A stretch of DNA of 29,326 nucleotides from a virus. The notes below the pieces were generated by a model, which did not search any database, was not told the DNA's origin, and saw only the letters and a program-made list of their open reading frames with translations. Both the position numbers and the translations under genes were made by a program. The DNA lies in IMG/VR virus record IMGVR_UViG_3300009026_000047, positions 1 to 29,326 of that record. One strand, given 5' to 3'. Shown here one piece after another: positions 12,932 to 25,636 of the stretch. Every line of letters begins with the position of its first letter. Position 1 is the stretch's first letter.

Positions 12932-12950
12932 GAAGTAGATTGATTAATTT

Positions 12951-12989
12951 AAAGGGGCAGGTAGGCTAGTGCTTGTCTGCCCTTTTTTT
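12951..12989 (+). terminator. Terminator after the capsid gene
   Basis: Stem GGGCAG (12955-12960) / CTGCCC (12977-12982), extended by a G-U pair and AAA/TTT, with a 16-nt loop region. A run of seven T follows. It separates the capsid message from the tail tube gene and could set their ratio. Confidence 0.85.
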
Positions 12990-13003
12990 ATACTTTATAC
13001 AAT

Positions 13004-13528
13004 ATGGCATGTGCTTTAACAAAAGGAAGAAACGAACCCTGTAAGGATGTAGTAGGTGGTATTACTGCCGTTTACTTTGCAGACTTCGGTACATTAGGTG
13101 ATCCTACCTATGATACAACAGATACGGATGTGATTGATGCTTTCAGCGGAACACCTTCATGGTTTAAGTTTGAAGTGAAAGGAAACTCTAGCTTTGAGCA
13201 AGCAATTACATCTAGCCGTGAGAACGGAACAACATTCTTTGATCAGACATTAAGTTTGACATTTAAGAAGATGAGTAAGCAGACTCACAATCAGTTAAAA
13301 CTGATCTCTTACAATCGCCCTCATGTAGTAGTTGAGGATAATAACGGCAACAAGTTCCTAATGGGATTAGATTATGGTGCTGAGGTTAATGGTGGTACTA
13401 TCGTTACAGGTGCTGCAATGGGAGATCTATCTGGTTATACTTTAACTATGAATGGTCAGGAGAAGATTCCTGCTAATTTCGTAGATGCTACGATTACTGC
13501 TGATGCTTCTGTGATTGATGATATCTAA
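13004..13528 (+). CDS. Major tail (tube) protein
   Basis: 174 aa, beta-rich. Characteristic blocks are KGNSSFEQAITSSRENGTTFFDQTLSLTFKK, NQLKLISYNRPHVVVEDNNGNKFLMGLDYGAEVNGG and SGYTLTMNGQEKIPANFV; I recognise these as those of the tail tube protein of Bacteroidota siphophages. It lies between two terminators, forming its own unit, as befits a protein made in many copies. Codons are like those of the capsid gene. It begins MACALTKGRNEPCKD, with two cysteines close together whose role I cannot infer. Confidence 0.75.
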   Translation: MACALTKGRNEPCKDVVGGITAVYFADFGTLGDPTYDTTDTDVIDAFSGTPSWFKFEVKGNSSFEQAITSSRENGTTFFDQTLSLTFKKMSKQTHNQLKLISYNRPHVVVEDNNGNKFLMGLDYGAEVNGGTIVTGAAMGDLSGYTLTMNGQEKIPANFVDATITADASVIDDI

Positions 13529-13550
13529 GATCAGATCCTGATAGAATCAA

Positions 13551-13584
13551 AAAAGCCCTTCCATTACGGAGGGGCTTCTTTTTT
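13551..13584 (+). terminator. Terminator after the tail tube gene
   Basis: A 10-bp stem AAGCCCTTCC (13553-13562) / GGAGGGGCTT (13568-13577), with one T-G pair and loop ATTAC, is followed by a C and six T. Confidence 0.9.
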
Positions 13585-13599
13585 GGTAGCAATGCTACC
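13585..13599. repeat. Short perfect hairpin after terminator
   Basis: GGTAGC (13585-13590), loop AAT, GCTACC (13594-13599): a 6-bp perfect inverted repeat directly abutting the terminator T run. It is not followed by T, so it is not itself a terminator. It may be an operator, an RNA stability element or chance. The rest of 13600-13657 shows no gene. Confidence 0.4.
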
Positions 13600-13640
13600 T
13601 AAGAGAGATGAACTATGCAAATGTAACCATTATATTCCTT

Positions 13641-13655
13641 TTGGGTTTTATAATT
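13641..13655 (+). repeat. 15-bp direct repeat copy 2 (TTGGGTTTTATAATT)
   Basis: Identical to copy 1 at 8610-8624. Here it lies 2 nt before the ATG at 13658, and its TATAATT end could be part of the A/T-rich translation start region. Confidence 0.4.
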
Positions 13656-13657
13656 AG

Positions 13658-14014
13658 ATGATAATTGTAGAAGAAAACACAACTCCACAGATAACTATGT
13701 ATCTCAGGGACTTTGCAACAGAGTCTTTTGAGATGGAGATTATATCTGAGGATCAAAGAATAGAGAAAGTAGATACTGCTATATCTGGATCATATGATGA
13801 TTTCAGAAAGGTTCTGACCTTCTCTTATGATGTTTCTGCTTTAGTAGCAGAGAGTTTTTATGTGATCAAGATTTGGGAAGTGGGTAAAATCAAACTACTT
13901 TCACAAGACAAGATGTATATCCTTCCTTCAGGATCTTCAGTAGGTACTTATCAACCTAAGTTAGCTACAACAGAGAAAACGATGGATAACGAGTTTAAGA
14001 TTTATGGAGAATAG
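13658..14014 (+). CDS. Small beta-rich structural protein upstream of portal
   Basis: 118 aa. Short beta strands dominate (PQITMYLRDF, FEMEIISEDQ, VLTFSYDVSALVAESFYVIKIWEVG), ending with DNEFKIYGE. I associate proteins with this N-E-F-x-x-Y-x ending with the portal neighbourhood in Bacteroidota phages, but no function has been assigned to my knowledge. The gene overlaps the portal start by 11 nt, so it is probably co-translated with it. A minor virion or head-assembly protein is the likeliest role. The start is the ATG that follows TTATAATTAG. Confidence 0.5.
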   Translation: MIIVEENTTPQITMYLRDFATESFEMEIISEDQRIEKVDTAISGSYDDFRKVLTFSYDVSALVAESFYVIKIWEVGKIKLLSQDKMYILPSGSSVGTYQPKLATTEKTMDNEFKIYGE

Positions 14015-15782
14015 TCAGTTCAAGTTTGTGCAACTATCTAGTTATACTAGCCCTGTTGTAAGTGAAAACGCAAGAAAGGGTTGGGTAGAATATGGAGATG
14101 ATAATGATTATTTTCAATACCTGATAGATAGATTCAACGGATCTCCTACAAATAATGCAGTAACCTCTGGGATCATTGACATGATCTTTGGGCAGGGTAT
14201 TGATGCTACAGATTCAGGTAAGAATCCAGAAGGATATCTTCAATTAAGAAAGTTGATCTCAGATCAGGAATTGAAGAAAGTAATCAATGATTACTATATG
14301 CTAGGCAATGGTGCTTTTCAGTTGATCTATAATCAGAACAAAAGCAAGATCGTTGAGGTATATCATATGCCTGTGGAGACTCTTAGAGCAGAGAAATGTA
14401 ATGAAGAGGGAGAAGTTGAAGCATATTACTATGCTTATGATTGGAATGAGGTTAGAAGCAAAAAAGGTGTTGATCGCATTCCTGCTTTTGGTTATGGTGA
14501 ACAAGGAGATAAAGTTGAGATCTTATACTTCAGACCTTATCGTAGTGGCTCTTACTATTATTCCCCTGTTGATTATCAAGGTGCATTACCTTATGCAGAA
14601 TTAGAGGGAGAGGTAGCTAACTATCATATCAATAACATCAAGAACGGACTTGCTCCTTCCATGATTGTGAACTTCAATAATGGAGTTCCACCTATGGAGG
14701 AGAGAGATAACATTGAATCTCAGATTAAGCAGAAGTGGGGAGGATCAAGCAATGCAGGGAAGTTCATTCTTTCCTTTAATGATTCAGCGGATACTGCTGC
14801 TTCTATTGAGCCTGTTCAGTTATCAGATGCTCATAATCAGTATGAGTTCCTTTCCAGAGAATCACAACAGAAGGTTTTGGTAGGTCATAGAATCACTAGC
14901 CCTATGTTGTTTGGTGTTAAGGATCAGACAGGATTAGGTAACAATGCTGATGAGATTAAAACCGCATTTACCTTGTTTGATAATAGCGTGATCAGACCTA
15001 AGCAGAATCAGGTGATAGATGCCTTAAATCAGATTTTAGCTTTCAATAATGTTTCGTTGAGCCTATACTTCAAGACTCTTGCTCCATTGGAGTTTACAGA
15101 GGTTGAGGATGTAGATGATCAGGAAGTGATAGAGGAAGAAACAGGAATCAAGATGTCATCTGAAGAGATGCCTGAAGGATACGATTACATTGCTGATGAT
15201 CTCGTTGTTTTAGGTGAGGATGTTAATGAAGATCAATGGGAACTTGTTGACGAGCGTGATGTAGATTACGAAAACGAAGAGGCACTTGACAAGATGCTTA
15301 CTTTTGCTTCAACAGGAACGGCAAGACCAAATGCGAAAAGTTCGCAGGATGGATCAAATGTTGAGGGTTCTAAGTTTTTAGTTCGTTATAAATATGAGGG
15401 AAGCACAAACCCTCAAAGAGATTTTTGCCGTAAAATGATGTCGGCAAACAAAGTGTACCGAAAGGAAGACATTATTGCTATGGAAAACATGGCGGTTAAT
15501 TCTGGTTTTGGTGAGGGAGGATCTTCTACATACTCAATATGGTTCTATAAGGGTGGTGCTAGATGTAAGCACAAGTGGATCAGAAGAACATATATGTCAA
15601 AAGCAGGTGTTAAGCCTGATGTAAATAGCCCTAACTCAGAAACTATTAGCACAACAAAAGCTAGACAAAAAGGATTTAGACCAGAGGCTAACAATCCAAA
15701 GGTTGGGATAACTCCAAGCAACATGAAAAACAAGGGGTTTGTTAACCCACCATCTACTAAGGATATACAAGGAGGATTATAA
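14004..15782 (+). CDS. Portal protein with C-terminal extension
   Basis: 592 aa. Residues 1-365 are a phage portal: GIIDMIFGQGIDA, INDYYMLGNGAFQLIYNQ, VYHMPVETLRAEKC, NHINN-type wing helices, LVGHRITSPMLFG (about 292-304) and FDNSVIRPKQNQVIDALNQIL. These suit the dodecameric DNA-entry ring bound by terminase. After an acidic linker (366-385) comes a further 200-residue extension: EGYDYIADDLVVLGED, KFLVRYKYEG, RDFCRKMMSANKVYRKEDI, YSIWFYKGGARCKHKWIRR, then a low-complexity basic/asparagine-rich tail. I have seen this extension on Bacteroidota phage portal or head proteins, but its function is unknown. Arginine CGN codons are commoner there than in the core, a weak sign of separate origin. Confidence 0.85.
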   Translation: MENSQFKFVQLSSYTSPVVSENARKGWVEYGDDNDYFQYLIDRFNGSPTNNAVTSGIIDMIFGQGIDATDSGKNPEGYLQLRKLISDQELKKVINDYYMLGNGAFQLIYNQNKSKIVEVYHMPVETLRAEKCNEEGEVEAYYYAYDWNEVRSKKGVDRIPAFGYGEQGDKVEILYFRPYRSGSYYYSPVDYQGALPYAELEGEVANYHINNIKNGLAPSMIVNFNNGVPPMEERDNIESQIKQKWGGSSNAGKFILSFNDSADTAASIEPVQLSDAHNQYEFLSRESQQKVLVGHRITSPMLFGVKDQTGLGNNADEIKTAFTLFDNSVIRPKQNQVIDALNQILAFNNVSLSLYFKTLAPLEFTEVEDVDDQEVIEEETGIKMSSEEMPEGYDYIADDLVVLGEDVNEDQWELVDERDVDYENEEALDKMLTFASTGTARPNAKSSQDGSNVEGSKFLVRYKYEGSTNPQRDFCRKMMSANKVYRKEDIIAMENMAVNSGFGEGGSSTYSIWFYKGGARCKHKWIRRTYMSKAGVKPDVNSPNSETISTTKARQKGFRPEANNPKVGITPSNMKNKGFVNPPSTKDIQGGL

Positions 15783-16282
15783 TGGCTCAGATACTATTTG
15801 TCAGCCCTGCTGATGTTATAAAGAGAACAGGGATCAACGGCAATGTTGATCGTGATCAGATGATTCAGTTCATTAAGATCGCTCAGGATATCCATATTCA
15901 GAGTGTTTTAGGAACTAAGCTATTCAATAAGATAGCAAGTGATATAAATGGTGATGCTTTAACAGGAGACTATTTAAGCCTTTTTACGAACTATATTCAG
16001 GATATGGTGATACACTATGCCGCAATAGAGATATTGCCTTATATCCACTTTAAAGTAGCAAATGGAGGCATCTATACGAAAGGATCAGAGAATGGTCAGA
16101 GCGTAACGAAGGAAGATCTTGATTATTTAGTACAGAAAGAAAGAGATGTTGCGGAGCATTATGCTCGTAGATTTGTAGATCATATGGCATTCTACAACTC
16201 AAAATATCCAGAGTACAATGCTTCATCTAATGATGATATGTACCCTAGTAAGAATCAAAACTTCAATGGATGGGTTTTATAG
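15782..16282 (+). CDS. Head-tail connector protein
   Basis: 166 aa, mostly helical. Blocks: FVSPADVIKRTGINGNVDRDQMIQFIKIAQDIHIQSVLGTKLF, LTGDYLSLFTNYIQDMVIHYAAIEILPYI, NGGIYTKGSENGQSVTKEDLDYLV, and RDVAEHYARRFVDHM. This is the pattern of a connector (gp6-like helical bundle) common in Bacteroidota phages that docks below the portal. The start overlaps the portal stop (TAATG). Family call is good, exact position in the neck is inferred. Confidence 0.75.
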   Translation: MAQILFVSPADVIKRTGINGNVDRDQMIQFIKIAQDIHIQSVLGTKLFNKIASDINGDALTGDYLSLFTNYIQDMVIHYAAIEILPYIHFKVANGGIYTKGSENGQSVTKEDLDYLVQKERDVAEHYARRFVDHMAFYNSKYPEYNASSNDDMYPSKNQNFNGWVL

Positions 16283-16368
16283 TAAAGCAAACCTATAAAC
16301 CGAAAGTAGAGAACATCCAGAAGTTGAAGAAGTATCTCATGAAAAAGAATAAGAAGAATGGCAAGTGA
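16270..16368 (+). CDS. 32-aa lysine-rich peptide (possible)
   Basis: ATG at 16270 opens MGFIVKQTYKPKVENIQKLKKYL and ends MKKNKKNGK at a TGA at 16366-16368. It overlaps the previous gene by 13 nt and the next by 11 nt, in the same overlapping style as its neighbours, and fills a 75-base gap. Very basic. Support is positional only; the same bases might just be spacer. Confidence 0.35.
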   Translation: MGFIVKQTYKPKVENIQKLKKYLMKKNKKNGK

Positions 16369-16672
16369 TGAAAGAGGATACGGAAGTATCTATGGATCTA
16401 CTTGGTGGGGATCAGGAGATGCCTTCACCAATACAATAGGTTGGGGATCGGCAATGTTCTATATTCTAGATCCTGCTCAATTCCAACAAAGAGCATTAGA
16501 GGATGGTGCTACGATGGAGGCTTTTGAGTGTGTTTCTAAATCATTGAGAAGATTCCCACAAGCGGATAGAGGCAGACAATTGATGGATGCCTATGATGTT
16601 AGGGTAGAAGCAGCAGCAGGTGATACCGAAGCGAGAACCTGTACTATTAACGAATTAAACGAATTGATATGA
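16358..16672 (+). CDS. Small Gly/Trp-rich protein, likely virion-associated
   Basis: 104 aa. It begins MASDERGYGSIYGSTWWGSG, a short aromatic-glycine start that I associate with small proteins encoded after the connector in these phages. The rest has a helical pair FQQRALEDGATMEAFECVSKSLRRF. Function unknown. It ends with an ATGA overlap into the first tail-fibre-like gene, which suggests co-regulation with adsorption proteins, although the last GATC before the GATC-free segment lies inside it (16,469), placing it at the boundary of that segment. Confidence 0.5.
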   Translation: MASDERGYGSIYGSTWWGSGDAFTNTIGWGSAMFYILDPAQFQQRALEDGATMEAFECVSKSLRRFPQADRGRQLMDAYDVRVEAAAGDTEARTCTINELNELI

Positions 16673-18702
16673 GTCTGTATAAGGATGCCTCATTAGTAAT
16701 GATACCTTCAGCGGTGAAGGATGGTAAGTTGTATAGCATACGCCCTACTCCCGAATATGGAGCAGAGTTAGTTACTAATGGAACTTTTGATAGTGATAGC
16801 GATTGGGATAAAGGAACAGGTTGGACTATTAGTGGTGGTACTGCTAATTGCAACGGAACTAATGATACTGCGATAGAGCAAAACATATCAAGTAGTAACA
16901 CTACCCTAAAAAGAATAACATTTAGTGTATCCAATTATGTAAGTGGTACATTAAGAGTGTATAGCGGAAGTGGCGCAGATGTTTTTTTAAATGTTACTGC
17001 TAACGGAACATACGAACTTGAAAGTTATTTAATTGCTAATAAGATATTTATATACTCATTATCTTCTTTTGTTGGTAGTGTAGACAATGTATCGGTCAAA
17101 GAGGTAATTAAGGGAGATGGGGATTTCACATTTAGTAGGGGTTCAAATCTTGCTGCTACAAGGGTAGATGTTAATGGTCTTATTGAGAAGGGTAGAGAGA
17201 ATCTATTTACCAATTCTAATAATTTCGGCTCCACTTCTTGGGGAGGTTCAGTCATAGAAACAAGCGGTCAAAGTGGCTACAATGGTACTAACGATGCTTG
17301 GTTAATAGAAAACGCTGCAAACGGAAAATATATTAGGCAAGACAACACATCTTCGGGAGTTTTAACTGCTTCAGTTTATGCAAAGGCGGGTAATGTTAAT
17401 TGGTTAAGATTTGCAGTAAGTAATAGCCCTGTTGTTTCCGTTTACTTTGATTTAGTTAATGGTGTTTCTTCAAATCCTTCTAATGTAATAAGCCAAACTA
17501 TTGTAAGTGTAGGGAACGGATGGCATCGTTTATCCGCAACATTTCTTGCTAATTCTATGAGTGGAATGCAGTTTTATCCCGCTGATGGTGCTAATGATTT
17601 AGGGGAAACAGGAGACAATATATTTTTACAAGATGCTCAATTAGAAAGCGGCCTCGTAGCTACCCCTTACATTGAAACAGGAGCATCTACTGCACAAAGT
17701 GGTATATTAGAGGACTTACCAAGATTAGATTATAGTGGTGGTGCTTCGTGTCCATCTCTTTTACTTGAGCCTCAAAGAACGAATAACATACCTTATAGCG
17801 AATATCAATCGGGTAGTGGCTTTTCTTTAGGTGCGAACATTACTTGGAATGGATTTGTAGAGAGTCCAGAGGGATATAATAACGCAAGTAGATTTACTTC
17901 CTCTACAACTTCTGCAAGTTTTGTTCAAGCAAATAGTGTCGTAATTCCTGCGGGTGATTTTACATTCTCAATGTGGGTAAGGGGCGTGAGTGGCTCGTTT
18001 GTAAATAGAAGTATGTATATACCTTCAATGACAGGCTCGCAAGCAACAATGAATGAAGCACCTGTTGCAGGTGAAGATTGGAAGTTAGTTTATGGTACAG
18101 GTGAAAACACAACGGGCGGAGCAATTACACGAACTATTACCCTACCATTTTATGACCAACCTGCGGGAGCAGTATGGGAAATGTATGGATTCCAAGTAGA
18201 AGCAGGAAGTTACCCTACAAGTTACATACCTACTATGGGTTCTGCGGTTACGAGGTCAAGAGATTTTAGCGAGGCAGTATTTACTGAAAATGATATAGCA
18301 CCGACAGGCGGTACAACTTTGTTTATAGAATTTGAAACAAGTGGAGAAGTAGATACTACTCCTAATACAGGAGGGTTTTATCTCAAAAATAACGCAGGTA
18401 CTTTAGGTCATTGGGGTATGTCATTTGGCTATGGAGATAGAATATATTCTAATTACCAAAATGGTTCTACTATTCAATGGGATGGTGCGACTCCTGAAAA
18501 CACCTTATGTAAGGTTGCTTTCCAATTAGTTAATGGAGGTAAGTCATTTCTTAACGGGACAACCAAAGCAACTACAAGTGTTGATTGGTCAACAAGACAA
18601 TTAGGGCAACTTGAATTGCAATATGGAACAAGAGTTAAACAAGCCATTTTATTCCCTACCATTTTAACTGATAGCGAGTGTATCGCATTAACAACTTTGT
18701 AA
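16669..18702 (+). CDS. Lectin-like tail protein A (receptor-binding candidate)
   Basis: 677 aa, nearly all beta, rich in S, T, N and G. Domain order by eye: N-cap MSLYKDASLVMIPSAVKDGKLYS; a carbohydrate-binding-module-like jelly roll at about 30-145 (NGTFDSDSDWDKGTGW to VDNVSVKEV); a GDGDFTFSRGSNLAATRV block; a second CBM-like unit with SGQSGYNGTNDAWLIEN to FLQDAQLESGLVATPY; LPRLDYSGG and LLLEPQRTNNI; a third unit beginning SPEGYNNASRF; then a concanavalin-like C-terminal domain ending LTDSECIALTTL. Such proteins bind surface sugars. Shares most blocks with its neighbour. Glutamine is CAA almost throughout and GATC is absent, unlike the genome backbone. Confidence 0.7.
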   Translation: MSLYKDASLVMIPSAVKDGKLYSIRPTPEYGAELVTNGTFDSDSDWDKGTGWTISGGTANCNGTNDTAIEQNISSSNTTLKRITFSVSNYVSGTLRVYSGSGADVFLNVTANGTYELESYLIANKIFIYSLSSFVGSVDNVSVKEVIKGDGDFTFSRGSNLAATRVDVNGLIEKGRENLFTNSNNFGSTSWGGSVIETSGQSGYNGTNDAWLIENAANGKYIRQDNTSSGVLTASVYAKAGNVNWLRFAVSNSPVVSVYFDLVNGVSSNPSNVISQTIVSVGNGWHRLSATFLANSMSGMQFYPADGANDLGETGDNIFLQDAQLESGLVATPYIETGASTAQSGILEDLPRLDYSGGASCPSLLLEPQRTNNIPYSEYQSGSGFSLGANITWNGFVESPEGYNNASRFTSSTTSASFVQANSVVIPAGDFTFSMWVRGVSGSFVNRSMYIPSMTGSQATMNEAPVAGEDWKLVYGTGENTTGGAITRTITLPFYDQPAGAVWEMYGFQVEAGSYPTSYIPTMGSAVTRSRDFSEAVFTENDIAPTGGTTLFIEFETSGEVDTTPNTGGFYLKNNAGTLGHWGMSFGYGDRIYSNYQNGSTIQWDGATPENTLCKVAFQLVNGGKSFLNGTTKATTSVDWSTRQLGQLELQYGTRVKQAILFPTILTDSECIALTTL

Positions 18703-18705
18703 GAT

Positions 18706-20424
18706 ATGAGCATATACGATAAATCAAGTTTGGTACTTATACCAAGCGGAACAAAGACAGGTAAAGTGTTTAGCCAAAAGCCTGTAAGCGGTGATGGTGA
18801 TTTTACTTTCACTCGTGCAAGTGCTGCTACGAGAGTTAATGCAGATGGTAATATAGAGAAGGAGACACAAAACCTGCTCTTGCAGAGTAACTCGTTTCTT
18901 ACAAGTTGGGTAAGAACAGGATACACCTTGACAAGTGGGCAGAGTGGCTATGATGGAACAAATAATGCTTGGTTAGCAGAATGTACATCAGCAGGTCAAG
19001 CACTATACCAAACATCTAACGCAAGTGGTGTAAGCACATTGAGTTTTCATCTAAAACAAGGCACGGCTAACTTTTTAAGATTGAGAGCAGACCAATCTGC
19101 TGATGCTATTGCAGTTTTTGATTTAAGTGATGGTTCGGTTCATTCATTTAACGGAAATGTTATTGATACTAATGTGGTTGATTTAGGCGGTGGATGGTAT
19201 CGTTGTTCAATGACTTGGAATATAGACACCTTATCCAATGTACAATTACGAGCAGAAGATGGTAATGGAAGTCCTATACTTGGTACATTCTACATCCAAG
19301 ATGCCCAACTTGAGCAGGGACTTGTAGCAAGAGATGTTATCACTACAACTACTGCTGCCGTATACGGAGGTATTACAGACAATACTCCAAGATTAGATTA
19401 TACGGATAGTTCGTGTCCTGCACTATTGTTAGAGCCACAACGGACTAATGAACTATCGCATAGTGAATACATTAATGCAGCAGGTGGTTATGCTATAACA
19501 GGTGCTTCAGTAACATATAATTCAAGCACATCTCCAGATGGCTATACAAATGCCACATTATTTGATATTCCTTATGACAACGCAGGGTTTTACAATTTTG
19601 ATACAGGAGGCTCTAAAAGTGTAGGAGACAAGTTAACAATCTCTTTGTTTGCTAAACTTAAATCAGGCTCCGTTACTAATGTATTGAAGTTGGGCTATGG
19701 TGGTGCAGCCGTAGGAGGCGATAGATTAAGCGAATTTAATCTATCAACAGGTACTATTAGTTATTCTCATCCAAGTGCTGATTCAGTCAGTATTAAAGAT
19801 TATGGCAATGGTTGGTATCGTTTGATTCAAACTCAAACTTGTTCAGCCGATGGCTTTGCAGGAGCAGTAATGTATGGCAAAGGAGAAATGGATGTTTACA
19901 TTTGGGGAGTTCAAAGCGAAGATGCGGCATACGCAACATCCTACATACCTACCTATGGGAGTAGTGTGAGTCGTGTGGTTGATAATGGATACAAAGATGG
20001 CTTATCGGTATTCGGAACGAATAAAGGAAGTTTCTTTGTAGATGCTGAAGGGCCTAATTATAATGGTATTGCCGCAAGTTATTTATTTGATTTGTCCGAT
20101 AACTCATCGGATATAGTTAATCGGTTTGCAGTTTATGCGATTAACCAAAACACCTTTAACATATTTACAAATGGTGGTAATTCGTTTACACTTGATGCAT
20201 CAATTCGTAAAAAAATACTTGTGATTTGGAATGGAACAAACACAAAAGTATATGCTAACGGAGTAAAGGTTTTAGATTTCACTTATGCCAATGCTAATCC
20301 CACAAGCATTAACTTAAATAGCCGTTTTAACGATGTTGAATATGGCAAATCAGAATTTAAACAAGTGTTGACATTCCCAACTGCATTAACTGACCAAGAG
20401 GCGATTGACCTAACAACTATATAA
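18706..20424 (+). CDS. Lectin-like tail protein B (paralogue)
   Basis: 572 aa. Its blocks match the preceding protein in order: MSIYDKSSLVLIPSGTKTGKVFS, GDGDFTFTRASAATRV, SGQSGYDGTNNAWLAE, YIQDAQLEQGLVA, PRLDYTDSSCPALLLEPQRTNEL, SPDGYTNATLF, YGWYRL-like strands, TSYIPTYGSSVSR, and a C-terminus ending LTDQEAIDLTTI. It lacks the first CBM-like domain of protein A, so the size difference is largely one domain. The gap between the two genes is only 3 nt. Nucleotide identity between copies looks low, so the duplication is old or the copies came separately. A receptor-binding or tail-decoration role is inferred. Confidence 0.7.
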   Translation: MSIYDKSSLVLIPSGTKTGKVFSQKPVSGDGDFTFTRASAATRVNADGNIEKETQNLLLQSNSFLTSWVRTGYTLTSGQSGYDGTNNAWLAECTSAGQALYQTSNASGVSTLSFHLKQGTANFLRLRADQSADAIAVFDLSDGSVHSFNGNVIDTNVVDLGGGWYRCSMTWNIDTLSNVQLRAEDGNGSPILGTFYIQDAQLEQGLVARDVITTTTAAVYGGITDNTPRLDYTDSSCPALLLEPQRTNELSHSEYINAAGGYAITGASVTYNSSTSPDGYTNATLFDIPYDNAGFYNFDTGGSKSVGDKLTISLFAKLKSGSVTNVLKLGYGGAAVGGDRLSEFNLSTGTISYSHPSADSVSIKDYGNGWYRLIQTQTCSADGFAGAVMYGKGEMDVYIWGVQSEDAAYATSYIPTYGSSVSRVVDNGYKDGLSVFGTNKGSFFVDAEGPNYNGIAASYLFDLSDNSSDIVNRFAVYAINQNTFNIFTNGGNSFTLDASIRKKILVIWNGTNTKVYANGVKVLDFTYANANPTSINLNSRFNDVEYGKSEFKQVLTFPTALTDQEAIDLTTI

Positions 20425-20426
20425 TT

Positions 20427-20798
20427 ATGAAAACATTTAGAAAATACTCATTCGGCTCTAAAGGAGCAGCAACAACTAAACTGAATGCCTTACCTCACGA
20501 TGAGGAAGGTAACCCTACGCACTCTCACGCCATTGTTCATCTTGGACACTTGGTAGAGACTGAAGGTACATACGATGACGAAGGAAACGAACTCACCGCA
20601 CCTGTACTATCTTCTACCTACCATATAGATGTTCTATGGGATGGTGCACCATTAGAGTCTTGGGATAGTGCTATGGTGTGGTGTCCTCCAATGGGTATCC
20701 ATACTTTCGGTTCATCTTCTGCTATTGCGGAATGGACTGAAGCCTGTAAGGAATTGCATCCAGAATACTTTCCAGAGCCAAGTGAAGATTTAATCTAA
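20427..20798 (+). CDS. Conserved small protein after tail fibres
   Basis: 123 aa. Pattern: helix KKYSF-type start (MKTFRKYSFGSKGAA), LPHDEEGNPTHSHAIVHLGHLVETEGTYDDEGNELTAPVLSSTYHIDVLWDG, then SWDSAMVWCPPMGIHTFGSSSA. I recognise this as a family that follows tail-fibre genes in Bacteroidota phages, with no known role. The WCPPMGIHTFG motif is its best marker. Possible tail-fibre assembly chaperone or a minor virion protein. It starts 2 nt after tail protein B and ends in a TAATG overlap. Confidence 0.55.
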   Translation: MKTFRKYSFGSKGAATTKLNALPHDEEGNPTHSHAIVHLGHLVETEGTYDDEGNELTAPVLSSTYHIDVLWDGAPLESWDSAMVWCPPMGIHTFGSSSAIAEWTEACKELHPEYFPEPSEDLI

Positions 20799-20941
20799 TG
20801 AGCAAGGATAGATACAATGTCCCTCAGGACAAGCGCAAAGGATGTCTTTGCAAAGATGGTAAGCGGTATTCCAGAGAATGTTGCGAAGGTGATTACATGA
20901 ATCAGGGTATAGGTAGCCTCACTAAAGTAGACGAAGAATGA
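20798..20941 (+). CDS. 47-aa Cys-rich basic protein before the endolysin
   Basis: TAATG start, ATGA-type stop overlapping the amidase start. The product has a compact cysteine cluster GCLCKDGKRYSRECCEGD (C16, C18, C28, C29) in a basic context. I associate very similar short proteins with this exact place, between tail proteins and amidase, in flavobacterial phages. A metal site or disulphide knot is possible; function unknown. Both-end overlaps make it a likely real gene. Confidence 0.6.
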   Translation: MSKDRYNVPQDKRKGCLCKDGKRYSRECCEGDYMNQGIGSLTKVDEE

Positions 20942-21354
20942 GAAACATAGAGAAGATTATAGTGCATTGTGCGGCTACTCGTGAGGGTCAAGATATTAAG
21001 ACTGATACAATCAGAGACTGGCATCTAAAGAGAGGTTGGTCAGCCATCGGTTATCACTATGTGATTGAGCTTGATGGTACTATTGGTATTGGTAGACCTT
21101 TGGAGCGTAGCGGAGCGCATACGAAAGGGCTGAATAGCAATAGCATTGGTGTATGCTATATTGGTGGTGTAGAGACTGATGGAAAGACTCCGAAGGATAC
21201 GCTTCAAGGGAAGCAGTTAGAGTCAATGGAGAACTTATTGAGAGGTTTGATGGCTGAGTTTCCAGAAGCTACCCTACACGGACATAACGAATTTGCAGCT
21301 AAAGCTTGCCCTAGCTTTGTGGTTGCTGATAAGTTTGAACATTTGATAGTATGA
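20938..21354 (+). CDS. N-acetylmuramoyl-L-alanine amidase (endolysin)
   Basis: 138 aa, an Amidase_2/T7-lysozyme-type enzyme. Zinc ligands and catalytic residues are visible: H10 in KIIVHCAAT, Y39 in IGYHYVIELDG, H116 in HGHNEF, K122 and C124 in AAKACPSF. The H116, K122, C124 spacing equals that of T7 lysozyme (122, 128, 130). RSGAHTKGLNSNSIGVCYIGG supplies the substrate-binding loop. It cuts the amide bond between muramic acid and the peptide in the periplasm. There is no signal peptide, so it needs a holin for export, and holin-like genes follow directly. Confidence 0.92.
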   Translation: MRNIEKIIVHCAATREGQDIKTDTIRDWHLKRGWSAIGYHYVIELDGTIGIGRPLERSGAHTKGLNSNSIGVCYIGGVETDGKTPKDTLQGKQLESMENLLRGLMAEFPEATLHGHNEFAAKACPSFVVADKFEHLIV

Positions 21355-21587
21355 AAAAACAAGATATGAGTTTTATTGAGATATTTAAGAACAGCAACGA
21401 TTGGAATGAAAAGACCATTATAGGTTTTATGTCGTTTGCAGTAATGATATTAGTAATGATTGCTGATGTGATTACAGGTGCTTGTGGTAAGGATTTAGCA
21501 ATTAATGAATTTACATACAACTCTTTTGTATTCGTTACTCTTGGAAGTTTCGGTATTGCAGGATTGGAAAAGTTTGCAGGGAAATGA
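21351..21587 (+). CDS. Holin-like membrane protein
   Basis: 78 aa with two likely transmembrane segments: TIIGFMSFAVMILVMIADVITGA at about 22-44 and YNSFVFVTLGSFGIAGLEKF at about 56-75. The 20-residue N-terminus is charged and should stay in the cytoplasm. Size, topology and the ATGA overlap with the amidase gene make it the best holin candidate. Identity as holin is inferred. Confidence 0.65.
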   Translation: MKKQDMSFIEIFKNSNDWNEKTIIGFMSFAVMILVMIADVITGACGKDLAINEFTYNSFVFVTLGSFGIAGLEKFAGK

Positions 21588-21748
21588 ATGAAGCAGATAT
21601 AAAACTAATGTTGCTTAATGCAAGTACATTTGCGATTAGCTTCTCACATATAGAGATGGCATTAAAGATTGCGCTGCTCCTAATCTCTATAGGATATACT
21701 GCGCAGCGTTGGTATCTAATGCACAAGGGCAATGGCTCAGGAGACTAA
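21584..21748 (+). CDS. 54-aa single-pass membrane protein
   Basis: ATGA overlap with the holin stop. MNEADIKLMLLNASTFAISFSHIE, then a hydrophobic MALKIALLLISIGYTAQRWYLMHKG segment (about 25-45) with positive residues on its C-terminal side. I recall equivalents beside holins in Bacteroidota phages. It may be a second holin component or an antiholin. The start and end overlap its neighbours (17 nt with the next gene), favouring a real gene. Confidence 0.6.
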   Translation: MNEADIKLMLLNASTFAISFSHIEMALKIALLLISIGYTAQRWYLMHKGNGSGD

Positions 21749-21983
21749 ATCTTTTTTAAAGGAAAATTGGTCAATGTTGATATGGCTTGTTGCAGCAGTC
21801 TTTGCAGCAGGGGGTATTTATGCAGAGTTCTCATCACTCAAGATGGAGTTGAATGTAGTTCATGAAAGATTAGATAAAAAGATTCTAGTCATAGAGAATC
21901 TAGAGGGAAGGATTTACGATATTGAAAAACACTTAGAATACGAAAAAGGATATAATGAATCACAAAGAAACAAGCCAAGATAG
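21732..21983 (+). CDS. Membrane-anchored coiled-coil protein of the lysis cassette
   Basis: 83 aa. One transmembrane segment SMLIWLVAAVFAAGGIYAEF at about 14-33, then a heptad-patterned, charged segment (LKMELNVVHERLDKKILVIENLEGRIYDIEKHLEYEK) that should form a coiled coil. N-terminus cytoplasmic, coiled coil in the periplasm: the layout of an inner-membrane spanin-like or holin-regulating protein. Could work with the lipoprotein gene downstream. Functional name not assigned. Confidence 0.55.
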   Translation: MAQETKSFLKENWSMLIWLVAAVFAAGGIYAEFSSLKMELNVVHERLDKKILVIENLEGRIYDIEKHLEYEKGYNESQRNKPR

Positions 21984-22074
21984 TTTTGAAGACTTCGTTG
22001 ATGAACTAACAAACCTAGAGCAACCTAGTTGCAACATTGATAATCCTGAAGATTGCGAAGCATGTGGATCGTAA
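21955..22074 (+). CDS. 39-aa acidic Cys protein (possible)
   Basis: ATG inside the end of the previous gene (29-nt overlap), stop TAA at 22072-22074, overlapping the next start by 13 nt. Product MNHKETSQDSFEDFVDEL... with C26, C34 and C37 (C-x2-C at the end) in an acidic setting. It bridges the gap between the coiled-coil and lipoprotein genes. Real-gene support is the open frame plus overlaps; no function suggested. Confidence 0.4.
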   Translation: MNHKETSQDSFEDFVDELTNLEQPSCNIDNPEDCEACGS

Positions 22075-22469
22075 CAAGAGCAGTTCTAATAGGGCTGCTT
22101 TTTTGGTCTTGTGGTGCGAAGTATCACCTAAATCGTGCGATTGCAAAAGATCCTCAGATCCTAGATTCAGTTGCCCTGAAAGTGGACACTCTAATCATAA
22201 CTCAAAAAGAAGAGGTTAGAGACACTTTAATTCTTGAGAAAGTAGATACTATCACTTTAGAGAGAAACGGCATTAGAATTGATCTTAGGAGGGTATACGA
22301 CACTATAGAGGTAGATGTTCAATGTCCTAGTGATACTATCAGGATCCAGAAGGAGATTAAAGTACCTCAACTTGTCTATCAGGAAAAGAACTTTGATAGG
22401 AAGTATCTATATATGTTGATTATCTCAATAATCCTTTATACCTTCGGTCTTATTAAGTTACTTAAGTAA
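22062..22469 (+). CDS. Unimolecular spanin (u-spanin)-like lipoprotein
   Basis: 135 aa from the ATG at 22062 (an upstream TTG at 22053 is less likely). It begins with a lipoprotein signal: positive MWIVTR, hydrophobic AVLIGLLFW, then S16-C17 as lipobox-like cleavage site, followed by GAKYHLN. The middle is charged and strand/helix mixed (DTLILEKVDTITLERNG, RRVYDTIEV). The last 22 residues, YLYMLIISIILYTFGLIKLL, form a C-terminal transmembrane segment. A lipid anchor at one end and a membrane anchor at the other is the hallmark of one-protein spanins, which fuse inner and outer membrane at lysis. The lipobox is non-standard (LFWSC), a caution. Confidence 0.65.
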   Translation: MWIVTRAVLIGLLFWSCGAKYHLNRAIAKDPQILDSVALKVDTLIITQKEEVRDTLILEKVDTITLERNGIRIDLRRVYDTIEVDVQCPSDTIRIQKEIKVPQLVYQEKNFDRKYLYMLIISIILYTFGLIKLLK

Positions 22470-22471
22470 CT
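22456..22471. repeat. 16-bp perfect palindrome at a gene end
   Basis: AGTTACTTAAGTAACT reads the same on both strands and overlaps the spanin stop codon. Just before an AT-only repeat, between the lysis and replication modules. Candidate binding site for a dimeric protein; not a terminator because no T run follows. Confidence 0.6.
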
Positions 22472-22520
22472 ATTATATATACTATATATACTATATATAT
22501 ACTATATACAATATATATTT
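22471..22520. repeat. AT-only repeat with TATATACT units
   Basis: From 22471 to 22532 there is no G. TATATACT occurs at 22476-22483, 22485-22492 and 22496-22503 within alternating TA tracts. Such a stretch melts easily; it could be an unwinding element of a replication origin or a very AT-rich promoter region for the genes starting at 22543. No DnaA-box-like cluster was found nearby. Confidence 0.5.
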
Positions 22521-22542
22521 TACTCTCTTACAGAGAGATATT

Positions 22543-22695
22543 ATGACTAGAAGACAAAAGAGTATAGCTATAGAGATGGGTAAGTTAGAGGATGATTACA
22601 ATAATCACTTCTTATCGCATTTTGGATTTCATGATGAACAGAGATCTGATCATTATAGTTTCTGGAAGTATTATCAAACAGAACAGGTCGTATGA
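22543..22695 (+). CDS. 50-aa hypothetical protein, first gene of replication half
   Basis: ATG preceded by a CAGAGAGATATT leader like those of the P1-P3 promoters. Product MTRRQKSIAIEMGKLEDDYNNHF..., charged, with F/H/Y-rich middle (HFLSHFGFHDEQ) and a short tail. Its TGA overlaps the next ATG. No family recognised. Confidence 0.5.
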   Translation: MTRRQKSIAIEMGKLEDDYNNHFLSHFGFHDEQRSDHYSFWKYYQTEQVV

Positions 22696-22832
22696 CAATG
22701 AGAGAAGCACAGACTTTAGCAGTTAGCCTTAATGATAAGGGATATACTGCTTGGGCAGTTCAAGGGTTTAGCGTTAAGCTAACAATCAACGGAGTAGTAT
22801 ACGAAATTAAAGAAGCAGATGAGAGATCCTAA
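22692..22832 (+). CDS. 46-aa hypothetical protein
   Basis: ATG at 22692 in an ATGA overlap with the previous stop. Sequence MTMREAQTLAVSLNDKGYTAWAVQGFSVKLTING has an alpha-beta hairpin look, close to a small ferredoxin-like or RHH-like half, but is too short for a firm call. Overlaps the next start by 14 nt. Function unknown. Confidence 0.5.
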   Translation: MTMREAQTLAVSLNDKGYTAWAVQGFSVKLTINGVVYEIKEADERS

Positions 22833-22992
22833 CATTGATAAATATCTTCACAAGATGGCTATGTTATTCCAGAACTTAGGATCCGAATCAACTCCAGAGG
22901 AAAGGATCTATGCTAAAGAAGAAGAGAGAAGATACTTAGGTAGAATAGCAGAGATTGATTCAGAGTATGCTGAGAGATTAGGATATGACTGA
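22819..22992 (+). CDS. 57-aa helical hypothetical protein
   Basis: Product MRDPNIDKYLHKMAMLFQNLG... is strongly helical and rich in E, R and Y at the end (AKEEERRYLGRIAEIDSEYAERL), suited to a coiled coil or short helical pair. Overlaps the RusA-like start by 8 nt, so probably coupled. No function inferred. Confidence 0.5.
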   Translation: MRDPNIDKYLHKMAMLFQNLGSESTPEERIYAKEEERRYLGRIAEIDSEYAERLGYD

Positions 22993-23353
22993 TCATACTA
23001 AAATAGAGATAACATTAGGAAAGATACCTAGCCTTAATAAATTCTACTCCTCACCTCATTGGACATTCAGATCCAGAGAGAAGAATAAATGGAAGGAGAT
23101 CATTTCTGATCAATTAGATTACGACTTTCAATTTGAGTATTGCGTAATTACTGCAAAGGTCAATTACAGGTATGATCTGGACAATTGCATAATGGCTATC
23201 AAGTTCACTCAGGATGCATTAGTAGATGCAGGAATGATAGCAGATGATAATAAGAAGTTCATCAGGTCAGTCAGGATAGAACCTGCTACAGACATCCCTA
23301 AGGATACATCAGTGATCCAGATAGAGGGAAAAATAATTCACAAACTTTTTTAA
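22985..23353 (+). CDS. rusA: RusA-family Holliday junction resolvase
   Basis: 122 aa. The family pattern is complete: GKIPSLNKFY near the start (P-S-x-N-x-x-Y), the basic WTFRSREKNKWK, and the core YRYDLDNCIMAIKFTQDALVDAGMIADDNKKF. D64 and D66 match the D-x-D-N acids of RusA, and D77/D87/D88 are candidates for the third metal ligand. RusA cuts four-way DNA junctions and can resolve replication or recombination branches before packaging. Fits the surrounding SSB, helicase and exonuclease genes. It is followed by a promoter-like site 8 nt after its stop. Confidence 0.75.
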   Translation: MTDHTKIEITLGKIPSLNKFYSSPHWTFRSREKNKWKEIISDQLDYDFQFEYCVITAKVNYRYDLDNCIMAIKFTQDALVDAGMIADDNKKFIRSVRIEPATDIPKDTSVIQIEGKIIHKLF

Positions 23354-23360
23354 TAATTCT

Positions 23361-23390
23361 TTGTAGTCTCAGATTTTATTCTTTTCTTTG
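23361..23390 (+). promoter_or_regulatory. Bacteroidota-type promoter P2 with GA-rich leader
   Basis: TTG at 23361-23363, then 19 nt, then TTTCTTTG at 23383-23390 (one mismatch to TAnnTTTG). The leader AATATCAAAAGAGAGAGAGAT leads to the ATG at 23413 and shares its core with P1 and P3. It would drive the genes up to the terminator at 24341. Confidence 0.65.
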
Positions 23391-23412
23391 AAATATCAAA
23401 AGAGAGAGAGAT

Positions 23413-23616
23413 ATGAAAACTACTAAGATCAGAAAAGGAGAATACCAAATCACAATCGGAGGCAAAACTTTAGATTTAATCAATGACATATGTATTGATA
23501 CAGGCAAAAATCAAGGTTGGAATTTATACAACGATCAAGGCGAATGGATGGGGTCTTCTGATACTAAAAAGCAAATGGTGCAATCATTGAAACACGCTAC
23601 ACCAGACGAACTTTAA
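23413..23616 (+). CDS. 67-aa hypothetical protein (P2 first gene)
   Basis: Small, mostly beta: TKIRKGEYQITIGGKTLDL, then NQGWNLYNDQGEWMGSSDTKKQMVQSLKH. A strand-turn-strand with W residues followed by a short helix is like small phage proteins that sit behind early promoters. No family name. It has its own strong promoter, so expression early and at a high level is likely. Confidence 0.6.
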   Translation: MKTTKIRKGEYQITIGGKTLDLINDICIDTGKNQGWNLYNDQGEWMGSSDTKKQMVQSLKHATPDEL

Positions 23617-23617
23617 T

Positions 23618-23800
23618 ATGCAAGATTGGCAAGAACAGATCTTAGAAAGAGAAGGATTTAAAAAGAGAGATATGAATACAGAGAACATTTATCAGATCAT
23701 TGATGATCTAGAAGGATTCGCAGAGAGAGTAGGAAGCGAATGGATGAAAGAAAGACTAGCAATGCTAGAGGTGCACATTATTAATCAATCAAGTAAATAA
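23618..23800 (+). CDS. 60-aa helical acidic protein
   Basis: Product MQDWQEQILEREGFKKRDMNTENIYQIIDDLEGFAERVGSEW... Two helices with a central break and acidic bias. Starts 1 nt after the previous stop and is followed by the SSB-like gene after 2 nt, in one operon with it. An internal ATG at residue 19 gives a shorter alternative. Function unknown. Confidence 0.55.
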   Translation: MQDWQEQILEREGFKKRDMNTENIYQIIDDLEGFAERVGSEWMKERLAMLEVHIINQSSK

Positions 23801-23802
23801 TC

Positions 23803-24318
23803 ATGAAGAAAGCAAAAGTAGTTGCGGTTAATCCGCAGGGAGATTATCAGTTAAAGGATGGAAGAACTTTATACAAGTTCGCTCTAACATTTGACAATGG
23901 AGATTCAGGAGAATACTCTTCAGTTAAACCAGATCAGACTAAATTCGTAGTTGGTATGGAAGCAGAGTATGAATTGAATGCTACTCAATATGGAAACCGA
24001 ATCAAGCCTGTTTACAATCAGGGAGGTGGTTTCTCAGGTGGTGGATATTCTGGAGGTAGTTACTCTTCAGGAGGAGACACTAAGCAGAAGATGATTGTAA
24101 AGCAGTCCTGTTTAAAAGCAGCAGTTGATCTCTTAAAAGACAAAGGTGCTAAGAGCACAGATGTTCTAAAGGTAGCAGACTCATTTGTGAGTTGGGTTAT
24201 GGAAGATGATAAGAAGGAGACTACATATGATAATCACTTCTCTTCCAGAGAGGAAAAGATAGAGGTAGCAAATGCTATCGTAAACGGACAAGCAACAGAT
24301 GATAACTTACCATTCTAG
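23803..24318 (+). CDS. SSB-like single-stranded DNA-binding protein
   Basis: 171 aa. Residues 1-70 are strand-rich (KAKVVAVNPQGDYQLKDGRTLYKFALTFDNG, FVVGMEAEYELN) and suit an OB fold. A glycine/serine/tyrosine-rich linker runs about 73-92. A helical part (QSCLKAAVDLLKDKG, VLKVADSFVSWVMED) follows. The protein ends DDNLPF, close to the DDDIPF-type tip that bacterial SSBs use to recruit repair and replication proteins. The tip, linker and neighbourhood (RusA, helicase, exonuclease) support a DNA-binding role. The linker sits in the middle and a helical domain precedes the tip, which differs from a standard SSB; homology to the E. coli protein is not proven. Confidence 0.65.
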   Translation: MKKAKVVAVNPQGDYQLKDGRTLYKFALTFDNGDSGEYSSVKPDQTKFVVGMEAEYELNATQYGNRIKPVYNQGGGFSGGGYSGGSYSSGGDTKQKMIVKQSCLKAAVDLLKDKGAKSTDVLKVADSFVSWVMEDDKKETTYDNHFSSREEKIEVANAIVNGQATDDNLPF

Positions 24319-24340
24319 TTGATTGATTGTGTTAGGTAGA

Positions 24341-24369
24341 GAGGGGTAGAAATACTCCTCTTTTTTTTT
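24341..24369 (+). terminator. Terminator after SSB-like gene
   Basis: An 8-bp stem GAGGGGTA (24341-24348) / TACTCCTC (24353-24360), with one G-U pair, capped by a GAAA tetraloop and followed by nine T. Confidence 0.9.
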
Positions 24370-24382
24370 CTCAGGATCTGAG
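24370..24382. promoter_or_regulatory. Inverted repeat upstream of the helicase gene
   Basis: CTCAG GAT CTGAG directly after the terminator's T run: a 5-bp inverted repeat with a 3-nt centre, 30 nt before the helicase ATG. An AATGTTTG at 24391 resembles a -7 element. Could be an operator or promoter part; the evidence is slight. Confidence 0.3.
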
Positions 24383-24411
24383 ATATTAAAAATGTTTGTT
24401 AAATTAGAGGG

Positions 24412-25338
24412 ATGATACATAAGCACATAATACAATCAAATAAGACTCTTCGCTATCTAGAGAGAGCAAGAGAGGGGAAGATAGCAGAGGCATCAAGATT
24501 TGGAGTAGGAGAGATAGATGATCACTTAAGATTCAAGAAGGGCAACTTCGTAGTAGTAACAGGACACGCTAATGTAGGAAAGACTCATACGATGACATAC
24601 CTGCAATTACTACATACATTAGAGAATGGAACTAGATGGCTGATCTATTCCTCAGAGAATGAGGTTCAATCCCTCCAGAGAAAGATCATTGAATTCCTAG
24701 CAGGAAAGCCAATCAATCAGATTGATGAACAGACATTCTGGAGACATCACGCTTTTGTTGAAGGACATTGGGCATTCATAGATTCAGAGTTGATTGTTAA
24801 TGCTTTTGAGTTATTAGATATTGCTAGAGAGATCTATGATGCTTGGGAGTTTCAGGGAATGATGATAGATCCTTATAACTCGCTAACGATAAAGAAGGAA
24901 GATGTAGGTAAGGGAATCTCAACGCATGAATATCATTACGAGGTAACAAGCCATATTAGAAAGTTCTGTAAGGAATATGGTGTAACTACGATAGTGAATA
25001 CGCATCCTGCAACACAGGCACTAAGACAAGTTCATAGAGGATCTCATGAATATGTAAATCATACGATGCCTCCTATGGCTAGTGATGTTGAAGGCGGTGG
25101 TAAATTCGTGAACCGCTCTGATGAATTCTTTGTGATCCATAGATACACGCAGCATAGTCAGGATTGGATCTTCACAGATATTCATGTAAGGAAGGTGAAG
25201 GAGTTAGAATCTGGAGGTAGACCTACACCATTAGATTTACCGATCAGGATGGAATCTACAAATGGGAATTGTGGGTTTAGAATAAATGGAATAAATTTGG
25301 TAACTAAAGAAAGACAATTAGATGGATCTCCATTTTGA
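24412..25338 (+). CDS. DnaB/RecA-fold helicase ATPase domain
   Basis: 308 aa. A short N-terminal helix leads into GVGEIDDHLRFKKGNFVVVTGHANVGKTHTMTYLQLL: Walker A GHANVGKT at 51-58. Walker B is GMMIDPYNSL at 149-158. VTTIVNTHPATQALR at 191-205 resembles the motif 3 region of DnaB-type helicases, and SDVEGGGKFVNRSDEFFVIHR follows as in DnaB C-terminal domains. No N-terminal primase-binding domain is present; loading would need another protein. Possible replicative helicase of the phage or a RadA/RecA-like repair ATPase. I favour the helicase because of the SSB-like and DnaA-like neighbours. Confidence 0.75.
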   Translation: MIHKHIIQSNKTLRYLERAREGKIAEASRFGVGEIDDHLRFKKGNFVVVTGHANVGKTHTMTYLQLLHTLENGTRWLIYSSENEVQSLQRKIIEFLAGKPINQIDEQTFWRHHAFVEGHWAFIDSELIVNAFELLDIAREIYDAWEFQGMMIDPYNSLTIKKEDVGKGISTHEYHYEVTSHIRKFCKEYGVTTIVNTHPATQALRQVHRGSHEYVNHTMPPMASDVEGGGKFVNRSDEFFVIHRYTQHSQDWIFTDIHVRKVKELESGGRPTPLDLPIRMESTNGNCGFRINGINLVTKERQLDGSPF

Positions 25339-25636
25339 AGGTAATAGGCTATACTATATGGAAAAGGAGGCAGAGTTATATCAGGCTCTGGACTACCTAA
25401 GTAAAGAATTAAGTGATCAGGAATCAATGACTAAAGAGCAGATGTGGGAGGTGTTTCATATCTGTGCTGATACCGCAGCAGTCTATAGACATATAACAGA
25501 TTACTTTACGACTCTAGATAAACTGATCCTAGATGCTAGGATTAAGAATGGTAAGTTGAAGCAGGAGTTGTATGATCTGAAGAAAGAGAATCATAAATTA
25601 AATGAGATGCTAAATAGAGAGATGGATGGATTTTAA
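25322..25636 (+). CDS. 104-aa coiled-coil protein
   Basis: Overlaps the helicase end by 17 nt. Helical with clear heptads at the C-terminal half (LDKLILDARIKNGKLKQELYDLKKENHKLNEML), which should dimerise. The N-terminal half (YYMEKEAELYQALDYLSKELSDQE) is acidic. No domain is recognised. Position between helicase and DnaA-like gene suggests a replication accessory, perhaps a loader or partner; this is inference only. Confidence 0.6.
   Translation: MDLHFEGNRLYYMEKEAELYQALDYLSKELSDQESMTKEQMWEVFHICADTAAVYRHITDYFTTLDKLILDARIKNGKLKQELYDLKKENHKLNEMLNREMDGF

Follow-up and report, generated by a model that had tools for sequence, protein, structure and literature searches.

The window analyzed here is a virus record of 29,326 bases (IMG/VR record IMGVR_UViG_3300009026_000047), and the element under study is a cassette of two adjoining genes, named adhesin 1 and adhesin 2, lying in a long stretch devoid of the tetranucleotide GATC. 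The portal gene and other structural genes are located 5' of the adhesins, and small open reading frames (ORFs) and lysis genes 3' of them (Table 1). A total of 231 GATC sites were found in the window. Two of these, starting at 16469 and 22067, flank the stretch and none lies between them, while the second-longest GATC-free gap is 477 bp. The first-pass annotation, made from the sequence alone, had given these limits exactly; its count of 28 sites in the first 2.8 kb and its expectation of about 19 in the stretch, where base composition predicts approximately 3.4 per kb, were also borne out.

A null model that preserves both protein and codon usage was constructed by permuting the synonymous codons of each gene (1000 shuffles). 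This was the permutation that the first-pass annotation had named as able to overturn its finding, and chance was rejected: the genes of the island contained 0 GATC against 11.2 expected (standard deviation 2.6, minimum 3), while those outside it contained 208 against 136.9 (standard deviation 7.5). When all genes of the window were shuffled, the longest GATC-free run had a mean of 1356 bp and a maximum of 3157 bp. For the adhesin genes alone (16669-20424) 9.0 sites were expected and zero was reached in none of the 1000 shuffles. The remaining 1.6 kb (20427-22066), comprising the small ORFs and the lysis genes, had an expectation of 2.5 and a probability of zero of 0.051. The signal sits nearly all in the two adhesin genes, the left border of the stretch lying about 200 bp ahead of adhesin 1, and the extension over the lysis genes is borderline. 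A coincidence with adsorption and lysis genes had been proposed; the former part holds, and the latter is marginal at most, GATC resuming at window positions 20.78-20.89 kb (block coordinates), just 3' of the adhesins, in four relatives (L021, L024, L009 and L069). Two contigs of other IMG/VR records, L001 and L081, are 100% identical to positions 6666-19479 and 18747-29326, respectively. Because each spans one junction a chimeric assembly is unlikely, although these records are possibly not independent samples.

Table 1. Features of the adhesin region (window coordinates; E, expectation value; aa, amino acids; nt, nucleotide)
Feature	Coordinates	Strand	Basis or remark
GATC-free stretch	16473..22066	.	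site counts and shuffles
Portal protein	14004..15782	+	phrog_33693, E 1.5e-121; backbone reference gene, 18 GATC
Adhesin 1, predicted spike/fibre protein, 677 aa	16669..18702	+	NF048003 GTA_spike_fiber, E 6.4e-50; phrog_5939 tail protein, E 8.4e-36
Adhesin 2, predicted paralogous spike/fibre protein, 572 aa	18706..20424	+	NF048003, E 2.5e-57; phrog_5939, E 3.8e-49
Conserved DNA patch, end of adhesin 1 and N-terminal part of adhesin 2	18650..18909	+	86% nt identity to L084/L085
Conserved DNA patch over inter-domain linker of adhesin 2, aa ~194-256	19285..19473	+	90% nt identity to L084/L085
Small ORF 3' of adhesins	20427..20798	+	phrog_18574, E 2.1e-6
Endolysin, N-acetylmuramoyl-L-alanine amidase	20938..21354	+	PF01510, E 4.8e-15; phrog_822, E 7.1e-55
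Small ORF at holin position of P12024S/L annotation	21351..21587	+	gene order only; no Pfam or PHROG match
Possible spanin (Rz-like), weak	21732..21983	+	phrog_739, E 0.0017

Based on matches to the NCBIfam family NF048003 (phage head spike fibre domain), with scores of 194.4 and 170.2 bits against a curated cut-off of 36, the adhesins are predicted to be paralogous receptor-binding spike or fibre proteins. In the Rhodobacter gene transfer agent, head spike and tail fibre are reported to bind capsular polysaccharide (PMC10218006). The window proteins resemble that head spike in scoring over the cut-off of its family, and may sit on either head or tail. An AlphaFold model of adhesin 2, of modest confidence (mean pLDDT 64, pTM 0.37), consists of beta-rich domains joined by linkers, with low-confidence stretches at residues 205-246 and 408-433. 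Its best Foldseek match was the baseplate/tail fibre of Pseudomonas phage Pa193 with a TM-score of only 0.26-0.29, and the matches at such low scores, which include phage tail fibres and carbohydrate-binding domains, serve as support only.

Relatives were collected from IMG/VR as the best 80 of 262 loci for the portal, the best 80 of 173 for the amidase and 49 for the second adhesin, these sets partly overlapping; apart from two isolates they are metagenomic contigs with mechanical gene calls. Neither megablast of positions 1-24000 nor blastn of 16300-22300 against 50,697 phage records found a DNA relative, and a search for a portal relative in a genome-contig collection gave 26 pattern matches, none of which was confirmed. 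The closest isolates are the Inhavirus phages P12024S and P12024L, which infect Nonlabens and came from seawater. The order portal, fibre, endolysin, holin is alike in these and the window, while the portal is only 37% identical and their fibre genes carry GATC at or above expectation (5 against 2.8 and 4 against 3.2). From this kinship a marine flavobacterial host may reasonably be supposed for the window phage.

The hole recurs. In contigs L021, L024, L009 and L069 a hole of 4.0-4.5 kb interrupts an otherwise GATC-bearing backbone at the place of that in the window, although the adhesin sequences differ, and in L070, L023, L039 and L034 the hole extends to the contig end. A hole of 2.9 kb was found directly 3' of the portal in G025, and holes at contig ends in G002 and G023. 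The latter two contigs seem to stop inside the adhesin region (L039; L058/L166), which would be the outcome if variation of the adhesin alleles within a population interrupts assembly. L014, in which GATC is scarce throughout (longest gaps 2598, 1711 and 1532 bp), is a less clear case, and the GATC-rich G022 is uninformative because its contig stops before the adhesins. Other relatives have no GATC over the sequence available, as in the whole 31.6 kb of the contig of L186 (G026) and in L084 and L085 (8.3 and 13.8 kb), both of which match the cassette at the DNA level.

Over 204 of 208 loci, with copies of the window removed and redundancy included, the homologues of the two adhesins contained 16 GATC against 175.6 expected (42 genes) and 46 against 316.2 (98 genes), and the portal class 962 against 1050.5 (117 genes). 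A non-redundant set of 59 phages, each represented by 900 bp or more of adhesin and 1500 bp or more of other genes, was then classed by the ratio of observed to expected sites (O/E) in the backbone, requiring adhesin similarity of at least 200 bits to those of the window. The 17 tolerant backbones (O/E at least 0.7) had 1122 GATC against 814.8 expected and their adhesins 17 against 96.8, 14 of these 17 in L149 alone; the 17 avoiding backbones (O/E at most 0.15) had 1 against 281.6, and their adhesins 0 against 111.8. Adhesin O/E was below backbone O/E in 16 of the 17 tolerant phages (sign test, P 0.0003). Among 33 non-redundant tolerant phages of the clade of the window (backbone O/E at least 0.6), the two adhesin classes (12 and 11 genes) had GATC counts of 1 against 53 and 1 against 34 (O/E 0.02 and 0.03) and CTAG counts of 2 against 61 and 1 against 58, while 13 gene classes from 1737 to 16282 had GATC O/E of 1.11-1.80. 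The small flanking genes were intermediate, with 0.82 for 16358-16672 and 0.60 for 20427-20798 (6 of 10 expected, 8 genes of tolerant relatives).

The first-pass annotation had read the stretch as a module exchanged from a phage whose hosts cut or mark GATC. Exchange, a connection with adhesion and the mark of GATC-avoiding phages all found support, the last in the short patches that are 77-90% identical to L084 and L085. These patches, and the contig L021, whose portal is 95.6% identical to that of the window and whose adhesins differ, also agree with one recent import, in which a single phage that avoids GATC supplied both adhesin and lysis genes. We regard such an event as quite improbable: the eight relatives with same-place holes carry different adhesins, so that one import each would be required, the adhesin tree fails to trace the alleles to one donor clade, and in most relatives, irrespective of backbone, the adhesins of the family have little or no GATC. 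A single import is, moreover, the single-genome case of the explanation favoured below.

The focus of the annotation on GATC was incomplete: adhesins 1 and 2 of the window also lack CTAG, CATG, ACGT, CCGG and TCGA, and AGCT is avoided too in the adhesin pool. Tetramer depletion was measured in 120 non-redundant adhesin genes. Low O/E was found for GATC (0.13), CCGG (0.14), CATG (0.16), CTAG (0.18), TCGA (0.22), ACGT (0.27) and AGCT (0.38), intermediate values for CGCG and GGCC (0.51 each) and GTAC (0.68), and values of 0.86-1.01 for ATAT, AATT, TATA, TGCA, GCGC and TTAA. The strongest depletions are thus mostly palindromes, the non-palindromes CTGG, ACAG and CAGC being low as well. Such under-representation of palindromes against a codon-preserving null is what is seen in restriction-site avoidance by phages; here, however, it does not extend to the whole genome, GATC standing at 208 of 137 expected outside the island against 0 of 11.2 inside, and CTAG at 89 of 74.7 in the backbone against 0 of 13.5 in the adhesins.

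The backbone of the window (genes up to 16300 and from 22000) tolerates GATC, CTAG and CATG, with a 1.52-fold excess of GATC and 1.19-fold of CTAG. The excess of GATC, previously remarked on as odd, is real, but since GATC is only eighth by z-score among the over-represented tetramers of the tolerant clade, it need not be specific to GATC. The same backbone has no TCGA (63 expected), ACGT (28), CCGG (9) or CGCG (9); each of these four has a central CG or a CG pair. Their distribution bears on the idea that the adhesin region enters the cell first, is exposed before protection acts and is therefore alone kept free of sites. In some other phages, whose genomes enter slowly, sites are absent at the leading end, and a local hole would result from such entry. 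The explanation is nevertheless hardly credible here. Depletion is confined to two genes in the middle of the late region, with the portal side and the early genes rich in GATC; TCGA and ACGT are missing over the whole length, which points to a general and not a positional defence; and GATC-free phages are free throughout the sequence available, as in G026.

The palindromes missing from the adhesins of the window are close to the union of those avoided by different backbones. With L149 excluded, backbones tolerating ACGT (n=10) had 151 sites of 177 expected and their adhesins 7 of 72; those tolerating CATG (n=8) had 116 of 139, their adhesins 0 of 28; those tolerating CCGG (n=4) had 60 of 46, their adhesins 0 of 11; and those tolerating TCGA (n=3) had 31 of 33, their adhesins 6 of 22. 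Five control palindromes avoided by no backbone (TTAA, TGCA, TATA, ATAT and AATT) stood at 0.87-1.02 in the adhesins. For each palindrome, the fraction of avoiding backbones was then compared with the adhesin depletion in tolerating carriers. The Spearman correlation was -0.53 (P 0.036) for 59 phages and 16 palindromes, and -0.83 (P 0.00013) for 15 palindromes in a 38-phage pool without L149, an exclusion decided after the data had been seen.

An alternative source of such depletion is an internal constraint on the adhesin genes, whether through protein content, codon pairing, RNA structure or the evasion of GATC-directed mismatch repair, that would exclude these tetramers in any carrier. Most members are depleted in tolerant and avoiding carriers alike, the depletion of GTAC and AGCT is unexplained by the carriers, CTGG, ACAG and CAGC are also low, and the absence of GATC from phage phiX174 has been linked to mismatch-repair escape (PMC5014478). 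Against this, the null keeps protein and codon usage, mismatch repair would affect GATC only, and the strongest depletions are mostly palindromes of differing composition with the five controls unaffected. Homologues with normal GATC also exist, namely L149 (14 against 5.5 expected), L191 (12 against 12), L202 (15 against 15) and the two P12024 fibres given above; L149 and the distant homologues point to site gain in tolerant carriers. Internal constraint is therefore considered unlikely. L149 shows that the adhesin family can carry many GATC if its carrier does. The contig (G001, 16.1 kb) contains 243 GATC (about 15 per kb) and a match to the methyltransferase family PF01555, and its other genes have 0 CTAG against 7 expected.

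The phylogeny of the module is discordant with that of the backbone, as seen from the class labels on two trees and from pairwise turnover. On the portal tree the tolerant phages group together, with 10 class changes where shuffled labels gave 24.3 and none of 500 shuffles was as low. On the adhesin tree they are nearly scattered (20 against 21.7, 140 of 500 as low); both trees were made by FastTree only and in both long branches meet. Sister adhesins were found in carriers of opposite class, for example L018/L169, L024/L174, L088/L176 and L089/L100. Adhesin identity was scored as the best single aligned piece times the coverage of the shorter gene, a measure that insertions can lower. At portal identities of 98-100%, adhesins were alike in 10 of 16 locus pairs, or 5 of 9 contig pairs after hand merging of loci on one contig; at 95-98% they were alike in 0 of 8 pairs, 4 being partly alike, and below 95% in 0 of 332. 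L167 differs in its adhesins from L099 and L102 with portals 99.7% identical, which appears to be a very recent swap among GATC-free phages.

Common breakpoints had been suggested as a check, and were found, though not in all relatives. DNA identity to the window stops at 16748-16749 in L009, L010, L017, L018, L021, L024, L034 and L036, at 16355 in L023, L069 and L070 and at 16806 in L039, and after short patches resumes at about 20.38-20.42 kb in L021, L024, L009 and L069. The two patches of Table 1 are likely recombination joints, the linker patch taking in the low-pLDDT residues 205-246 of the model. Identity at 4-fold sites in adhesin 2 was 0.55-0.56 at residues 1-60 and 0.64 at residues 211-240, against approximately 0.33-0.37 at residues 271-390; patches reached 0.64 in adhesin 2 and 0.73 in adhesin 1, variable parts about 0.25-0.4 and the portal windows used as a yardstick 0.31-0.59. 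From this pattern, swaps may fairly be taken to occur by recombination at linkers.

The length of stay of an adhesin in its carrier was estimated by counting the synonymous changes that would create a site, assuming site-free arrival and neutrality in a tolerant carrier, with L149 excluded. Four GATC in 30 adhesin genes of tolerant phages correspond to an average stay of 0.028 synonymous changes per site (95% interval 0.008-0.071), and six CTAG in 29 such genes gave 0.027 (0.010-0.059). The two motifs suggest a residence of about 3% synonymous divergence, which fits the turnover from the portal comparison. In the adhesins of the window, 31 changes would create GATC, giving about one site per 0.1 synonymous divergence. 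A passive lag, in which the backbone has lately become tolerant and the adhesin lags behind in place, was rejected because the backbone classes of the 33 tolerant phages are already at O/E 1.11-1.80, and also because sites should arise in the adhesins at the rate just given.

The preference for the glutamine codon CAA noted previously is present, with 0.87 of 46 codons in the island and 0.41 of 307 elsewhere in the window, but it is pool-wide (0.84 of 1158 in the adhesins against 0.55 of 2503 in backbones). The log-likelihood ratio per codon of avoiding versus tolerant backbone usage was -0.020 for adhesins of tolerant phages and -0.018 for those of avoiding phages, on a scale where avoiding backbones score +0.034 and tolerant backbones -0.028. 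The CAA preference thus does not name a donor, and codon usage as a whole does not point to a GATC-free one.

The explanation we consider probable is that the adhesins belong to a fast-circulating pool which is common to many backbones and filtered by many restriction systems. The island would then be a cassette of two paralogous receptor-binding genes drawn from this pool. Which restriction palindromes are avoided would differ between backbone lineages, depending on the hosts of each and the modification genes that it carries, and adhesin alleles would change carriers often via conserved linker DNA. An allele with GATC, CTAG or another site would be purged while in carriers where that site is forbidden, so that the surviving pool would lack almost every site forbidden in one carrier or another. 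In a GATC-tolerant carrier the cassette would be replaced before mutation restores GATC, and a GATC-free hole would appear in a GATC-rich genome. That restriction-modification is the selective agent is inferred from the specificity for palindromes. Short residence is favoured over local selection against GATC. A phage with about 200 other GATC in its genome gains nothing from clearing its adhesins; on this argument restriction cannot have selected the hole in place, and the avoidance must have been acquired in other backbones.

Several observations weigh against this explanation. No methyltransferase was found in the window, for which 30 of the 39 called genes were scanned with Pfam and the record was searched for four families. 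The adhesin of L149 is a clear exception; with it kept in a 39-phage pool, the correlation falls to -0.44 (P 0.09) and CGCG stands at 18 of 15 expected in the adhesins of three tolerant phages. GTAC is depleted though no backbone avoids it, and AGCT stands at 0.25 in the adhesins of tolerators though few backbones avoid it (3 avoid, 23 tolerate). Identification of a donor by codon usage failed, adhesin usage not singling out a GATC-avoiding source. Residual clustering is present on the adhesin tree for the avoiding class (18 changes against 22.2, 28 of 500 shuffles as low) and for all three classes (22 against 25.4, 16 of 200 as low). Its end branches are long (median 0.74), and so no very recent donor of the adhesin of a tolerant phage is in hand. 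Finally, most of the contigs of relatives are possibly fragments.

Avoidance of sites by individual phage genomes and stronger avoidance in broad-host-range plasmids are already known. Phage genomes under-represent palindromic restriction sites, and for 46 phages with hosts encoding the matching enzyme, GATC was reported as below expectation in every case (Rusinov et al. 2018, PMC6286503). The likeness is in the palindromic sites; the difference is that whole genomes were compared there, while here modules of one genome differ, the backbone being 1.5-fold enriched in GATC and the adhesins having none. The words mosaic, horizontal, gene exchange, part of the genome and late genes do not occur in the main text of that paper. 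Among the matches listed from the open-access literature, with most subscription journals outside it, none described avoidance that is restricted to receptor-binding genes or independent of the backbone. Our data suggest that new cut sites arise in fibre genes more slowly than these genes pass from phage to phage, and that the immunity of a whole bacterial community, not that of one host, shapes the host-range genes of phages. Missing restriction sites could then serve as a tracer of gene movement, and site counts could date the stay of a host-range gene, because sites forbidden in one backbone and harmless in another return by mutation. A more speculative proposal, which we regard as rather unlikely, is that adhesin cassettes are selected as restriction-proof mobile units, lacking targets for most nucleases in the community, surviving the cutting of their carrier in a restricting cell and being rescued by recombination into a co-infecting phage; if so, restriction itself would decide which module swaps and where its borders fall.

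In plasmids, plasmid genes and broad host range go with stronger target avoidance, and larger elements are reported to carry methyltransferases instead (Shaw et al. 2023, PMC10359461). The common point is that mobile genes meeting more restriction systems avoid more targets. That work dealt with replicons and pangenome fractions, and its effect held for 6-bp and not for 4-bp palindromes, whereas one gene cassette inside a phage, several 4-bp palindromes and a near-total effect are concerned here. Methyltransferases were sought in 39 records, classed by us, some of which may be fragments. PF01555 exceeded its cut-off in 8 of the 22 records classed as tolerant or intermediate and in none of the 17 avoiders (Fisher P 0.0056); one such enzyme resembles DpnA and CcrM alike. 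PF00145 was over the cut-off in 4 of 39, namely G008 and G022 (tolerant), G020 (intermediate, O/E 0.56) and G041 (O/E 0.33, counted as an avoider). As possible causes of GATC tolerance, PF05869 and PF02086 were each found in 0 of 53 records. Fusions of ParB_N with PF01555 were identified in two relatives, at L211:11235-12419 and L217:3657-4820. Within window positions 66-1407, a ParB_N protein that shares 72% identity with the N-terminus of the L211 fusion (139 aligned columns) is encoded next to a TET-associated glycosyltransferase (PF20691), upstream of the terminase. This position may be a slot for alternative DNA-modification genes.

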